DNA of 64,000 bases from Chitinophagaceae bacterium (GTDB lineage: Bacteria; Bacteroidota; Bacteroidia; Chitinophagales; UBA10324). Made by a program: the position numbers and the translations under genes. Positions 54,093-59,934 of the stretch are shown piece by piece. Where the stretch lies: the NCBI GenBank assembly GCA_947469485.1, contig CANIPU010000014.1, forward strand, positions 1 to 64,000, written 5' to 3'. Under the pieces are notes generated by a model that made no database searches, was not told the DNA's origin, and saw only the letters and a list, made by a program, of their open reading frames with translations. The first letter of the stretch is position 1. Every line of letters starts with the position of its first letter.

Positions 54093-54878
54093 ATGCTTAA
54101 AAATCTTATTTCACTTCTCTTATTTGTTCCAATATCTTTCTCTGCATTAGGTCAAATTATTTATTTAAGTAATGGTGTTTTAGAGAATGGAAAACATACT
54201 CCAATTAGTAATCACTCAATTAACCTTGAAAATTATTCGGGCTTTCATAAAGTGATTTTTAACACTACTGATATTTCTATATCTAAGCCAATCTTATTAG
54301 TATCGAAAAAAAATGATTCCTTATTTCAACCCATAAAATGGGTTAAACTTGTAAAAAGATATAATTCCGAATTTTTTTCTGCAGATATTGAATGGGGAGA
54401 AGACGGAGAATACAAATTATCTGTAATTGAAGCACAAAAAGAAATTATCAGTGATTATTACTCATTAAATGTTAATGAAGAAGATGCATTATCAATTTCA
54501 GAAGGACAATATGATGATGAAGAGAAATATAATGACCCGAATAACACTTTTTATTACATTGATTCAAAAGTTGAATTTTGTGAATTTGTAAATGGTAATT
54601 CTGAACCTGTAAATTTCAACTCTGAATTTCCAGTCGGGAATGTATCTATTCATGTAACTAACTATAAGCCAATTATTTCAGATGAATTAAAAATTTATAT
54701 TTATAGATTAAAAGGAAAAAAGGATCAGGAATTGATTGATAAGAAATACTTTCCAATAAATTCGGGTAGCTTAAGTGAATCTTTTACTTATTACTTCGGT
54801 ACTAAAGGTTCTTTTGTGGTAAGCGTATATGCCAATGAAGATGTTTGGGTGAACGATGGAAACATAAAAATTAAATAA
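54093..54878 (+). CDS. Secreted protein with a module shared with the adjacent protease
   Basis: The frame opens at 53955, overlapping the divergent DUF885 gene, but the ATG at 54093 starts a clear signal peptide (MLKNLISLLLFVPISFSALGQ) and gives 261 residues. Residues about 20-125 are a beta-rich domain of unknown type. Residues about 146-261 form a module (YNDPNNTFYYIDSKVEFC ... YYFGTKGSFVVSVY ... WVNDGNIKIK) that also occurs twice in the protease encoded 33 bases downstream. DNA identity in the FYYIDSKVEFC segment is high, pointing to duplication. No enzyme motif is visible. It may be a binding partner or regulator of the protease. Confidence 0.75.
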   Translation: MLKNLISLLLFVPISFSALGQIIYLSNGVLENGKHTPISNHSINLENYSGFHKVIFNTTDISISKPILLVSKKNDSLFQPIKWVKLVKRYNSEFFSADIEWGEDGEYKLSVIEAQKEIISDYYSLNVNEEDALSISEGQYDDEEKYNDPNNTFYYIDSKVEFCEFVNGNSEPVNFNSEFPVGNVSIHVTNYKPIISDELKIYIYRLKGKKDQELIDKKYFPINSGSLSESFTYYFGTKGSFVVSVYANEDVWVNDGNIKIK

Positions 54879-54911
54879 ATAACTATTCAATAAGTAAAAT
54901 AAATCAACAAA

Positions 54912-56375
54912 ATGAAACGCACAATTATTCTCCTATTAGTTTTGATTTCAGGCTTAAACTCCTTCGCTCAAACAGATCTTACAACATTAATTGACAAATG
55001 CTCACCGTCAATTTTTAAAATTACTACTTACGATGCGTCAGGTAATGAATATGCTGTAGGTACTGGTTTTTTTATTAGTGCAACTGGTACTGCTCTTTCT
55101 AACTACCATGTATTTCAGGGCGCTTCCAAAGCTAAAATAAAAACCTCCGACAATAAGACATACCTCGTTGAAAATGTGATCGGATGGAGTAAAGAGAGTG
55201 ATCTTTTAAAGTTTACCGTTAAGAATGAATTAAGTGAAACATTTCCTTTTTTAAAAATGAATGCTGTTTCGCCAAAACAAGGTGAAAAAATCTTTATCAT
55301 TGGAAATCCACTTGGCTTGGAAAAGTCTGTTGCAGACGGAATAGTATCATCTGTCAGAGCAGATGAGAAAATGGGAGAGACCATTCAGATAACCGCCCCT
55401 ATTTCTCATGGAAATAGCGGAAGTCCACTTATGAATATGAACGGCGATGCATTAGGTATAGTTACTTATTATTTAGAAAGCGGCCAGAATTTAAATTTCG
55501 CCGTAAGTGTTAAAAACCTGAATATTCTTGAACCTATAAATGCCTATAAGTTTCCACCTGAAGATGGGCAGGAAACTGTGGTTTCTAACAACAGCAATAA
55601 CAGCTCAAATAGCAATTCAAATACAACAACATCAGATATTTATGCTGGTTCAAAAGTGACCTTTTGTGAAAGTGTTGATGATGCTGGTTATCCGGTAACT
55701 GTTAGTTCGGTTTTTAACATAGAAAGTGGAGGAGGTAATGTTACTGTTTATGTTGACAATGGAAGCACACAAATACAATCAACCGGTTTGGTTGTTGACA
55801 TTTATAAAAAAGGAAGTTCAGATAAATATGATCAGTTTATTGAAACAAAAAACTATACTATCAAATCTTCTCTTGTTGCTACATATTTCGATTACTTTTT
55901 TGCAACAGCTGGCGAGTATGTAGTTCATGTATATAATGGAGAAGAAAAATGGATTAATGATGGTTATATCACAATTAATAATAAAAGTGGCAGTCTAGAT
56001 ATTGATTATAATGACCCAAGCAGTACATTTTATTACATTGATTCCAAGGTTGAATTTTGTACTGAATTAGATAATCTAAATAGTTGTTCAAATGCCGGTA
56101 GCGTGTTTAATATAAGCAAAAGCGGAAGCTATGTATATGTATGGGTAGGTCAGGATAAAGCATTGAAAACAAGCGGGGTAACGCTTGATATATACAAGAA
56201 GAAAGGTGGTGATTATGATGATTTTGTTGAGACAAAAAACTACACCATTAATCCTGACAAGAGTGCATTTTATATTGAATATACTTTTTATAATGCCGGA
56301 GATTATAAATTTAAATTCTATACCGACAATAGTGTATGGATTCAAGACGGGACAGTTACAATTAAATATAAATAA
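54912..56375 (+). CDS. Secreted trypsin-like (S1C) serine protease with two C-terminal modules
   Basis: The 487-residue protein has a signal peptide (LNSFAQ) and a DegP/HtrA-like protease domain at about 21-210. Its catalytic triad is H66 (SNYHVF), D97 (SKESDLLKF) and S169 (SHGNSGSPL). No PDZ domain follows. Instead, after an Asn/Ser-rich linker (about 222-241), there are two copies of a roughly 115-residue beta module (about 241-356 and 364-487). Each has a Cys near its start (KVTFCES, KVEFCTE), a D-I-Y-K-K block, NYTI, and an ending W-I-(N/Q)-D-G. The gene at 54093 carries the same module. The layout suggests a protease with ligand-binding or dimerising modules, perhaps substrate-sensing in the periplasm or on the surface. 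Confidence 0.85.
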   Translation: MKRTIILLLVLISGLNSFAQTDLTTLIDKCSPSIFKITTYDASGNEYAVGTGFFISATGTALSNYHVFQGASKAKIKTSDNKTYLVENVIGWSKESDLLKFTVKNELSETFPFLKMNAVSPKQGEKIFIIGNPLGLEKSVADGIVSSVRADEKMGETIQITAPISHGNSGSPLMNMNGDALGIVTYYLESGQNLNFAVSVKNLNILEPINAYKFPPEDGQETVVSNNSNNSSNSNSNTTTSDIYAGSKVTFCESVDDAGYPVTVSSVFNIESGGGNVTVYVDNGSTQIQSTGLVVDIYKKGSSDKYDQFIETKNYTIKSSLVATYFDYFFATAGEYVVHVYNGEEKWINDGYITINNKSGSLDIDYNDPSSTFYYIDSKVEFCTELDNLNSCSNAGSVFNISKSGSYVYVWVGQDKALKTSGVTLDIYKKKGGDYDDFVETKNYTINPDKSAFYIEYTFYNAGDYKFKFYTDNSVWIQDGTVTIKYK

Positions 56376-56393
56376 TTGATATAGTTACGATTA

Positions 56394-56900
56394 ATGCTGC
56401 CAGAATATCAAAAAATAATTGATTCGGCAAAACTTAAAAAGGCAGAGACACAGAAGCTATTTGAAAAGCTAAAAAAACAAAAGCCTAAAAATCTTGATCG
56501 AGTAACAAATGAGTTACACGATCAGGCTTTTGAGAACATTGATTGCCTGAAATGTGCAAACTGTTGCAGAACAACTGGCCCATTATTAAAAAACAAGGAT
56601 ATTGAACGGCTTGCTTCTCATTTTAAACTAAAACCTTCCTTGTTTACTGAGAAATATTTGCGCATTGACGAGGATGGTGATTTTGTTTTTAAGGCTATGC
56701 CTTGTCCTTTTTTGGGCACTGATAATTATTGTTCTGTATATGAATCAAAACCAAGCGCCTGTGCTAATTACCCTCATACTCAACAAAGAGATATACTTCA
56801 AAAGCTAAAAATCACTTATCACAACAGTATGATATGTCCAGCTGTGGCTGAGGTGGTTGAAGGTTTAAAGAAAATATACCAGACCTCAGTTATTAGTTAG
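56394..56900 (+). CDS. YkgJ-family cysteine cluster protein
   Basis: The 168-residue cytoplasmic protein has the CxxCxxCC cluster (C51, C54, C57, C58) and further cysteines at about 104, 113 and 123 in the CPFL..NYCSVYESKPSAC block. This pattern is that of YkgJ/UPF0153 proteins, which probably bind zinc or an iron-sulfur cluster; function unknown. It starts 18 bases after the protease stop and may be part of the same transcript, though the two have different cell locations. Confidence 0.88.
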   Translation: MLPEYQKIIDSAKLKKAETQKLFEKLKKQKPKNLDRVTNELHDQAFENIDCLKCANCCRTTGPLLKNKDIERLASHFKLKPSLFTEKYLRIDEDGDFVFKAMPCPFLGTDNYCSVYESKPSACANYPHTQQRDILQKLKITYHNSMICPAVAEVVEGLKKIYQTSVIS

Positions 56901-57294: not shown

Positions 57295-59934
57295 TTACCT
57301 CAACAAAGTAGCATTGCCTTTCAGCATGAATATTTTTCCGGTGATATTGTCTTTGTAACGAACTATATACGCATACACTCCAATACTGCATGGGGTTTCG
57401 TAGTATTTTCCATCCCAATTCATATCGCCGTCTGCATAGGTAAATACTTTTTCTCCCCACCGGTTGTAAATATCATACTGAACCAACATGGCATTGCCTA
57501 TTCTTATCGGGAACAGAAAGTCGTTCACTCCATCGCCATTCGGTGAAAATGCATTCGGCATTATGTATGCACCCGGACATTCTGTTATTTTTATTGTGTC
57601 AACATCGTATCCGCATGGATTGCTGACATCAACCCAATAGGTACCTGCTTTCGGAATATTAATGGATTGTGTAGTGTCGCCTGTTGACCATAAAAAATTA
57701 TTTATATTGGAATAGGCCAGTATAAAATATCCCTCCGGAGCGCATAGTACTGTATCGCCGGGAAGTGTTACATATGGAAACGGGTCTAACTTGATTGATA
57801 CCGTGTCGGTAGCTACTCCGCATAAGTTACTTACCAGAACTATCAGCGGTCCGGCTGTATTGATAGTTACCTGTGGGGTAACTGCATTATTTGACCACAG
57901 GTAGTTACAGGCAATGCATGTTGCATCAAAGCTGGTTGTAAAGCTTCCGCAGAATGAGGTGTCGTTTCCAAGGTTTACTGTCGGAGCTGATGCCTGTATA
58001 ATGTGAATGGTATCTGTAATTGCTCCGCAGTTGTTATTCAATTGAACCCAGTAGGTACCTGCCTGATTTACTGTAATGGTTTGATCTGTTGTTCCATCAG
58101 ACCACAGGTAGCTTGTTGTGCTTGTTCCGCCATCCAGTAGTCTTGTGAAATTGCTGCAGTAAAGTGTATCATTCCCTAATGCTGAAACCGGTGGTGATGA
58201 TTGTGTGATGTTTATGGTATCGGTTGCTGTTCCGCAGTTGTTTGAAACATTCACCCAGTAAATTCCGGCTGTGCTTGCATTAATGCTTGCTGCATTGCTT
58301 GTGTTTGACCAGCTATAACTTGCTCCTGCATTGGTGGCATCGAGCAACTGAATGAAGGCTGAACAGTACAGCGTGTCATTGCCCAACGAAACCTGTGGTG
58401 AGGCATATTGATTGAAGACAATGGAATCTGTTATGCTTCCGCAGTTATTGGAAATAATTACCCAGTAGGTTCCTGCTGCATTTACATTCAGCGTTTGCTG
58501 ATTGGTGTTATTGTTCCACAAGTATGTGGCGCCGCTGTTTGCTGCATTCAATTGCAAATTAAAATTGCTGCAGTAGGTGGTATCGTTTCCTAAAGCAGGA
58601 ACAGGTGATGATGCGATGGAAATAGTTATATTATCGTTTTGGTTTGCACAAACATTGGTTACCACAACAGAATAATTGCCGGCGGCATTTACGCTAATGC
58701 TTTGCGTGGTTGCATTGGTTGACCACAGGTAGGTGCTTCCGGCATTGCCGGCATCAAGTGTTACAGATTGTCCGTTACATATGGTGGTATCGTTACCAAG
58801 GTTCAGAGAGCCTGAGGTGCCTATTGTAATTGAAATGCTATCGGTTACTGAGCAGTTTCCGTTTCCTACTGTTACCCAGTAAATTCCTGAAGTACCAGCT
58901 ACGATTGTCTGGGTTGTGGCATTTGTATTCCACAAATAAGTTTGACCCGGATTTCCTGCATCCAGTAACATGCTTTGTCCTGAACATATGATCGTGTCAT
59001 TGCTTAAGTTGACTGCGAGGGTGTTTTGAATGGAGATTGTAATTGTATCGGCACCAACACAGGTTCCATTCGTAACGGTTACCCAAAATGTACCACTTGT
59101 ATTAACACTTATTGTTTGTGATGTTGCTCCTGTATTCCATAAAAAGCTTGAGCCGACATTGCCAGCATCAAGTATTGTTGGTTGACCATTACATATTGTT
59201 ATATCGGGACCAAGATTTACGCCAACAGTTATTGGCGATGCACAGTTATAAGTATTGGATGCAAGATTAGTGAGAATATTTTCCATTAACAGAGTTGAAG
59301 TATTTTGATTAACCCAATCCTGGTCAGTAGTTTGAATAACCCGGCCTCCATTTGTATTAGGTGCACAATAAATAAATCCAAAATAATCACCGCCAAATTC
59401 CAAAAATGGTTCTACTATACTACAGGCGCCAGGAAGGCCACGGCAACCATACCAGTAATAACTTAATGAAGGAACCGCGTTATTGGTTGTAGATAGACTT
59501 CCAAGAACATTCATTGGCACTAAAGTTCCTGGAATAGTTCCAAGATAATTAAACGGACCTCCTCCAAACTGCGCTATCAGATTTTCGAAGAGCGCATTGG
59601 TATTATATGCTGAGCAATCATATTCTCCTTCAATATATGCCCGGCCACCTTGTGCAATGTATCCGGCAACATTTGTCATCGCTACAGCGGAAAGTGCAAT
59701 TACACCCGAAGAAATAATGAGGATATCAGTAGTTGAATAAAATACATTGTTGTCTAAAGTTGTTTGCGGGTTAATGGTGGCAGTGAATCCTATACCTGTT
59801 GCAACTGTTTGCCAGTTAATATCCATAACATGACCTGCATTATAGCTCTGACTTTCTATAATAGTTACATTCTGACACAAGGAAACTTTTGCGATAAACA
59901 AAAAGAAAATAACAACACAAATCTTAAGTTTCAC
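57295..59934 (-). CDS. Eight-repeat adhesin-like protein with gliding-motility-type C-terminal domain
   Basis: The 879-residue protein has a signal peptide (MKLKICVVIFFLFIAKVSLCQ) and an N-terminal domain at about 22-235 (ThuA/amidotransferase-like, with IIESQSYNAGHVMDINW). Eight tandem beta repeats of about 62-66 residues follow (about 241-775), each starting LGNDT.C and containing LW(S/N) and (T/N)C(G/N) positions. The end (about 790-879) is the gliding-motility-associated C-terminal domain (PNAFSPNGDGVNDFL, YNRWGEKVF, ADGDMNWDGKY), a type B T9SS export signal. Likely a surface or adhesive protein. The repeats resemble PKD/Ig-like folds. It is convergent with the small gene on its right flank. 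Confidence 0.9.
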   Translation of the reverse strand: MKLKICVVIFFLFIAKVSLCQNVTIIESQSYNAGHVMDINWQTVATGIGFTATINPQTTLDNNVFYSTTDILIISSGVIALSAVAMTNVAGYIAQGGRAYIEGEYDCSAYNTNALFENLIAQFGGGPFNYLGTIPGTLVPMNVLGSLSTTNNAVPSLSYYWYGCRGLPGACSIVEPFLEFGGDYFGFIYCAPNTNGGRVIQTTDQDWVNQNTSTLLMENILTNLASNTYNCASPITVGVNLGPDITICNGQPTILDAGNVGSSFLWNTGATSQTISVNTSGTFWVTVTNGTCVGADTITISIQNTLAVNLSNDTIICSGQSMLLDAGNPGQTYLWNTNATTQTIVAGTSGIYWVTVGNGNCSVTDSISITIGTSGSLNLGNDTTICNGQSVTLDAGNAGSTYLWSTNATTQSISVNAAGNYSVVVTNVCANQNDNITISIASSPVPALGNDTTYCSNFNLQLNAANSGATYLWNNNTNQQTLNVNAAGTYWVIISNNCGSITDSIVFNQYASPQVSLGNDTLYCSAFIQLLDATNAGASYSWSNTSNAASINASTAGIYWVNVSNNCGTATDTINITQSSPPVSALGNDTLYCSNFTRLLDGGTSTTSYLWSDGTTDQTITVNQAGTYWVQLNNNCGAITDTIHIIQASAPTVNLGNDTSFCGSFTTSFDATCIACNYLWSNNAVTPQVTINTAGPLIVLVSNLCGVATDTVSIKLDPFPYVTLPGDTVLCAPEGYFILAYSNINNFLWSTGDTTQSINIPKAGTYWVDVSNPCGYDVDTIKITECPGAYIMPNAFSPNGDGVNDFLFPIRIGNAMLVQYDIYNRWGEKVFTYADGDMNWDGKYYETPCSIGVYAYIVRYKDNITGKIFMLKGNATLLR
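57600..59214 (-). repeat. Eight tandem coding repeats (about 190-200 bp each)
   Basis: The region codes for eight successive units with consensus LGNDT-x-x-C...LDAxN..YLW...T.QTI.VN.AGTYWV.V.N.C...TD.I.I. Units 4-6 share the start LGNDTLYCS-type and the core TYLWNNN-type. The sequence is coding throughout, so the repeats reflect domain duplication and probably recombine. Confidence 0.85.

Follow-up and report, generated by a model that had tools for sequence, protein, structure and literature searches.

The locus at 54093–56375 raises the question of why a serine protease carries copies of a module that is also present in a small exported protein, the product of the gene directly upstream, and whether the two products act together. 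The first-pass annotation of the window (the whole stretch of 64,000 nucleotides analysed here) had regarded them as a possible two-protein system, in which a protease lacking a PDZ domain is combined with a modular sensor or inhibitor.

The gene pair and the catalytic domain

Both genes were confirmed at the positions at which they had first been annotated, on the forward strand. The upstream gene (54093–54878), an open reading frame whose start is backed by orthologues, encodes an exported protein of 261 amino acids, hereafter the neighbour, which is made up of a signal peptide, a divergent N-type module (54156–54482; placed in the N-type clade with support of 100/95 and 100/97) and a C-type module (54513–54875; profile i-E 5.2e-33; grouped with the second module of the protease, 100/89). 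Following an intergenic gap of 33 bp (54879–54911), the downstream gene (54912–56375, same strand) encodes an exported S1C/Trypsin_2 serine protease of 487 amino acids with two C-terminal modules, as indicated by the open reading frame, domain matches and orthologues. Its catalytic domain (54972–55541) is connected by an Asn/Ser/Thr-rich linker, evident from the sequence (55572–55640), to two C-type tail modules, the first at 55596–55988 (i-E 4.5e-50, the profile envelope taking in part of the linker) and the second at 55992–56372 (i-E 4.1e-54, also backed by an AlphaFold2 model and its structural neighbours). The gap measures 31–34 bp in three orthologous pairs, and this short same-strand arrangement is consistent with a single transcript. 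The protease gene is followed after 18 bp by a gene for a CxxC-rich small protein (56394–56900, YkgJ-like by eye), which is kept at this place in the organism's own genus (g1), not in genera g6 or g3.

The catalytic domain matches Trypsin_2 (PF13365; Pfam) at residues 50–183 (E=1.5e-22, 81 bits), the closest solved proteins to the protease are HtrA/Deg proteases, and the catalytic part alone matches the NCBIfam HtrA/Deg models (DegP/DegQ/DegS/HtrA). As aligned with solved HtrA proteins, the triad consists of His66, Asp97 and Ser169 (SNYHVF, KESDLL, GNSGSP) and is kept in all eight fusion proteins. At full length, every NCBIfam HtrA/Deg equivalog model scored far under its cut-off (e.g. 98.7 versus 416.2 bits). 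No PDZ domain was matched in the protease by Pfam at E up to 10, as had been stated at first reading; the two modules fill the tail instead. The accompanying suggestion that these may replace the PDZ domain is likewise supported, in that they take the position held by PDZ domains in HtrA proteases.

The protease resembles the Deg/HtrA family (MEROPS S1C; DegP, DegQ, DegS, HTRA1/2) in its exported trypsin-type domain, its His-Asp-Ser triad and the presence of extra C-terminal domains in the PDZ position, but differs from it in carrying two Ig-like modules instead of PDZ. The number of PDZ domains allowed in S1C proteases ranges from 0 to 4 (PMC4877387), and because Deg/HtrA members without any have been described (PMC4877387, PMC3473262), absence of PDZ alone is not new. 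The use of an S1C-like domain for sensing is also already known from RsgI9 of Clostridium thermocellum, a protease-like anti-sigma sensor which combines an S1C with an NTF2-like domain and is reported to bind cellulose (PMC12203970). The RsgI9 ectodomain (PDB 7sjy) is among the closest solved sequences to the window protease (E=5.5e-17) and similarly joins an S1C domain to another domain; however, the alignment shows a changed serine motif in RsgI9, whereas GNSGSP is intact in the window protease, and the accessory domains are different ones, with no kinship between them shown.

The N-termini of both proteins were read by eye as Sec signal peptides ending in AQ or GQ and without a lipobox (for the neighbour, MLKNLISLLLFVPISFSALGQ). 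The NCBIfam library gave no match to a T9SS sorting domain (TIGR04131/TIGR04183) for either of the two, but picked up a T9SS protein encoded at 57295–59934 of the window, the positive control, above the TIGR04131 cut-off. T9SS secretion of the pair was rejected on the lack of a C-terminal sorting domain in both proteins, and the periplasm is therefore the default location that we infer. The product of the control gene, which lies on the reverse strand, is a T9SS type B cargo protein carrying serial repeats of ∼75 residues (GNDT..C....LDAGN.G..YLW.). For the protease at full length, the predicted model was of low quality (pLDDT 62, pTM 0.32), the catalytic part and linker falling below pLDDT 50 over long stretches, which is too low to read off how the domains are arranged or where the tail lies with respect to the active site.

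Copies and predicted fold of the shared module

A protein alignment of the neighbour C-module with the two protease modules covers ∼120 residues, 22 of its columns being invariant, and the protease modules are 33–37% identical to the neighbour's module; over the copies within the pair, identity amounts to 33–41% for protein and ∼59–65% for DNA. When the 261-residue protein was used as query against its own genome, the protease modules were recovered at E=1.3e-13 and 1.7e-12, far past chance. The repeat reported earlier is thus genuine, but the three copies counted then are four, as the N-terminal copy of the neighbour had been missed. This divergent copy spans residues ∼11–130 and is matched with i-E 1.9e-16 in the window and 1e-22 to 1e-27 in the orthologues, values which are partly given by construction because the profile included the N-terminal halves of the orthologues. 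A first profile built without these halves gave them marginal scores (i-E 0.0025 to 0.41), and the N-terminal module is independently supported by the tree and by unrelated families whose proteins show this two-module layout too.

A fairly recent duplication had been deduced from nearly identical DNA shared by the two genes. In the correct register (54546–54581 versus 56025–56060, 33/36 bases), the shared DNA corresponds to one conserved motif, YYIDSKVEFC, whereas whole modules show the 59–65% DNA identity given above. Across genomes, the same motif is identical at 34/36 bases between the window protease and the neighbour of genome G003 and at 35/36 between the window neighbour and that of G004, and the within-genome identity is no higher than these values. 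In addition, the split of the copies in the tree is older than the divergence of genera g1 and g6. The tree, the identity of the motif across genomes and synonymous change close to saturation led to the rejection of a recent duplication; by these comparisons, the module duplication is old.

The three modules first recognised in the window matched no Pfam or NCBIfam family above the curated cut-off, and five homologous module proteins matched no Pfam family above cut-off. The profile search recommended at first reading thus places the module in no described family of these two libraries above threshold, and no match to a described family with known function emerged. The best sub-threshold match is that of one of the three modules to Crystall_2 (PF09076, beta/gamma-crystallin), with 20.8 bits against a cut-off of 25 and a best stretch of 27 residues; the gathering score for membership is not reached, the fold itself staying possible, and beta/gamma-crystallins are absent among the structural neighbours listed, which excludes nothing. 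A candidate Ig-like sandwich is suggested by weak matches to the PKD, Y_Y_Y and KY Ig-like models.

Structure prediction, likewise recommended at first reading, gave an AlphaFold2 model of the second protease module with eight strands (pLDDT 94.8, pTM 0.86). Its best structural neighbour is 6oe6_B, an uncharacterised Leptospira protein (Z 11.3, rmsd 2.6 Å, 104 residues), and many Ig/FN3-like chains follow at Z 8–9.5. The module is accordingly predicted, with high confidence, to be an Ig-like beta-sandwich; these structural neighbours tell its fold, not its function. A G-x-Y motif, with G in 100% and Y in 84–91% of N-type, solo and C-type modules, is read as a tyrosine corner. The predicted fold is shared with Ig-like, FN3 and PKD beta-sandwiches and with Leptospira 6oe6, but no sequence relationship to these was found: the profile search against the PDB returned nothing significant, and homology in sequence to a solved protein was rejected at a best match of E=0.51.

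Distribution of the module and its fusion to enzymes

We counted matches of a 22-row module profile in sampled genomes of the order, class and phylum, and detected the module in 60/299, 41/395 and 33/395 genomes, respectively; most genomes have no match, others up to seven. In family f61, which belongs to another class, all 29 of 29 genomes carry it. The module is therefore widespread across Bacteroidota. Most module proteins are exported proteins with either a solo module (∼130–150 residues) or two modules (∼250–300 residues), and the genome under study itself has one further gene of each kind. The second two-module gene (L042:5361–6167; G000:C3:152426–153151), of N+C type, is nearest to one from family f14 and was seen in no other member of its own family; a horizontal gain is possible. 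Three consecutive module genes with open frames of ∼170–190, 150 and 140 residues occur in family f61 (e.g. G1022:C27:6994–8191 and G1020:C18:60429–61644), and in two genomes of genus g29 (L051:5247–6092, L052:5046–5876) a two-module gene adjoins apparent rpsF-rpsR-rplI ribosomal genes, with a row of exported paralogues of ∼140 residues (GNLQFNQV...) on the far side. The neighbourhoods of other module genes, where read, gave no consistent functional hint.

Trees split the modules into an N-type (the first of two-module proteins), a solo type and a C-type. The two modules of the protease tail belong to the C-type, while the neighbour combines N-type and C-type. The C-module of the neighbour is nested among the protease tail modules, as sister to protease module 2 (100/89) in a group which also holds the tail from genus g3, a more remote one (98/81). 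The simplest story is that a protease adjoining an N+C gene gained the C-module of that gene, although the rooting of the C-type group holding the neighbour C-module is compatible with copying in either direction.

The idea that fusion to an enzyme is unique to this locus was rejected, since a second protease lineage and a kinase also carry the module. In families f89 and f113 of the same class, a Trypsin_2 protease of ∼590 residues bears the same double C-type tail. A tree with both sets of module-bearing protease heads in a single clade was rejected (p-AU 4.5e-7). The f89/f113 heads are also joined by paralogues that gave no module match, and this points to the module having entered the two sets in separate fusions. 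The corresponding test on the tail modules left a single clade standing at the 0.05 level (p-AU 0.058), and the different heads may thus carry related tail modules. In two of these loci (L126:1140–2816, L125:520–2064) a second long Trypsin_2 protease lies directly, or one gene, upstream of the module-bearing one, and no module was found in these upstream copies. In genome G745, a gap of 27 bp separates the protease gene from a free solo module gene on its downstream side, whose module clusters with the tail of that protease (100/99).

The kinase fusion (L120:2859–4460; genome G466, family f61) comprises a PknB-like Ser/Thr kinase, a membrane segment and one C-terminal module; it was read in G466, and genomes G1031 and G1032 of genus g241 have module matches in open frames of similar length. 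Because the kinase and membrane part matches the PASTA kinase model, the module, following the membrane segment, stands in place of PASTA repeats. The protein thus has the kinase-membrane-extracytoplasmic domain layout of PASTA kinases (PknB/Stk1), but with a C-terminal module instead of PASTA repeats, and in one genus. Further module genes of G466, for proteins of 137 and 179 residues (the latter a likely lipoprotein), lie ∼4 kb from the kinase gene.

Taken together, the module behaves like a mobile extracytoplasmic domain that occupies the PDZ position of HtrA proteases and the PASTA position of kinases. No paper was found on such a protease-module fusion, nor on PDB 6oe6. What is new, within the libraries and papers searched, is that the tail is an unnamed Bacteroidota-wide Ig-like module present on more than one enzyme lineage.

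Conservation of the pair and its possible function

The protease fusion occurs in 6/6 genomes of genus g1, one genome of g6 and one of g3. In five of these eight (G000, G002, G003, G004 and G010) the neighbour lies upstream of the protease, its orthologues in G002, G003 and G010 measuring 249–265 residues and that of G004 being a contig-edge copy, while it is absent beside the protease in G001, G005 and G007. At the end of the G004 contig (L007:1–300), the 5′ end of the neighbour gene is replaced by a short repetitive stretch, probably an assembly end. The two genes therefore do co-occur, and their adjacency is found in both g1 and g6 despite differing flanking genes; an obligate two-protein system is at odds with the three proteases that stand without the neighbour, which is linked to the protease but dispensable. 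Between the window and G002, G003 and G010, identity amounts to 92–96% for the catalytic head, 65–89% for the tail and 38–73% for the halves of the neighbour; for G010 of genus g6, it is 92% for the head, 65% for the tail and 38–41% for the neighbour modules. Such a gradient would fit a constant enzyme with diversifying binding parts.

According to the reading we prefer, to which we assign a probability of roughly one half, the locus probably encodes an active HtrA-type (S1C) protease, Sec-exported and periplasmic, with two Ig-like modules standing in the PDZ position after a flexible linker rich in Asn and Ser. From the placement of the module in the PDZ position of an HtrA protease and in the PASTA position of a kinase, we infer that the module binds a ligand or protein and thereby directs or regulates the enzyme to which it is attached. 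By domain position, which is no more than an analogy for function, the modules may dock the protease onto a protein, a peptide or a ligand at the surface within the envelope, thereby selecting its substrates or where it acts. The neighbour, whose C-module shares its lineage with the tail, would probably be a binding protein of two modules (N+C) that is exported on its own; it may recognise the same or a related ligand and would most likely act as adaptor or competitor for the protease. Of the roles envisaged in the first-pass annotation, that of a modular sensor is supported indirectly, in its sensing or binding part, by analogy with the kinase carrying the module in the PASTA position and with the protease of another catalytic lineage.

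The adjacency of the pair could also be a by-product of local module duplication: a module gene lay beside the protease, which acquired a copy of it, and the two proteins now act separately without a joint function. We consider this rather improbable, albeit the strongest competitor. It would account for the three proteases lacking the neighbour, for solo and tandem module genes found elsewhere without an adjoining protease in the neighbourhoods read, and for the fast evolution of the neighbour (38–73% identity); yet adjacency has been kept in two genera with different flanks, the neighbour is under purifying selection (dN/dS about 0.15–0.17 for the window versus G003, synonymous sites of the N-half being near saturation), no neighbour-type gene was seen in family f1 apart from the protease fusion, and a free module gene again adjoins the protease in G745.

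A homotypic assembly, in which the modules of neighbour and tail bind each other and the neighbour serves as scaffold or anchor for the protease, is less probable still. The sister relationship of the neighbour C-module and protease module 2 and the clustering of the free G745 module with the tail of the adjacent protease are as expected for such an assembly, but shared descent alone accounts for this similarity, and most module proteins occur alone.

A dedicated inhibitor or regulator, binding the active site or displacing the tail, is very improbable: apart from the upstream, co-directional position of the neighbour gene and the partial Crystall_2 match, a family that includes a Streptomyces metalloprotease inhibitor, nothing specific speaks for the inhibitor proposed initially, and this match is sub-threshold, covers 27 residues, lies on a protease module rather than on the neighbour and concerns metalloproteases, while three proteases exist without the neighbour.

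Beyond the adaptor or competitor role that we prefer for this pair, a broader and speculative proposal is that the module represents an undescribed phylum-wide envelope ligand-recognition domain, which has repeatedly been fused to enzymes, namely to proteases of at least two lineages and to one kinase, the free module proteins beside some of these being matching receptors, adaptors or decoys. If true, this would constitute a recurring enzyme-plus-free-receptor arrangement in Bacteroidota, and the presence of the module on two catalytic lineages of protease and on a kinase suggests a common envelope ligand or binding mode. A curated domain model for the module would annotate many small uncharacterised exported proteins across Bacteroidota lineages. 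For the HtrA family, the tail adds a PDZ replacement which could help to probe how these proteases are guided by their accessory domains.
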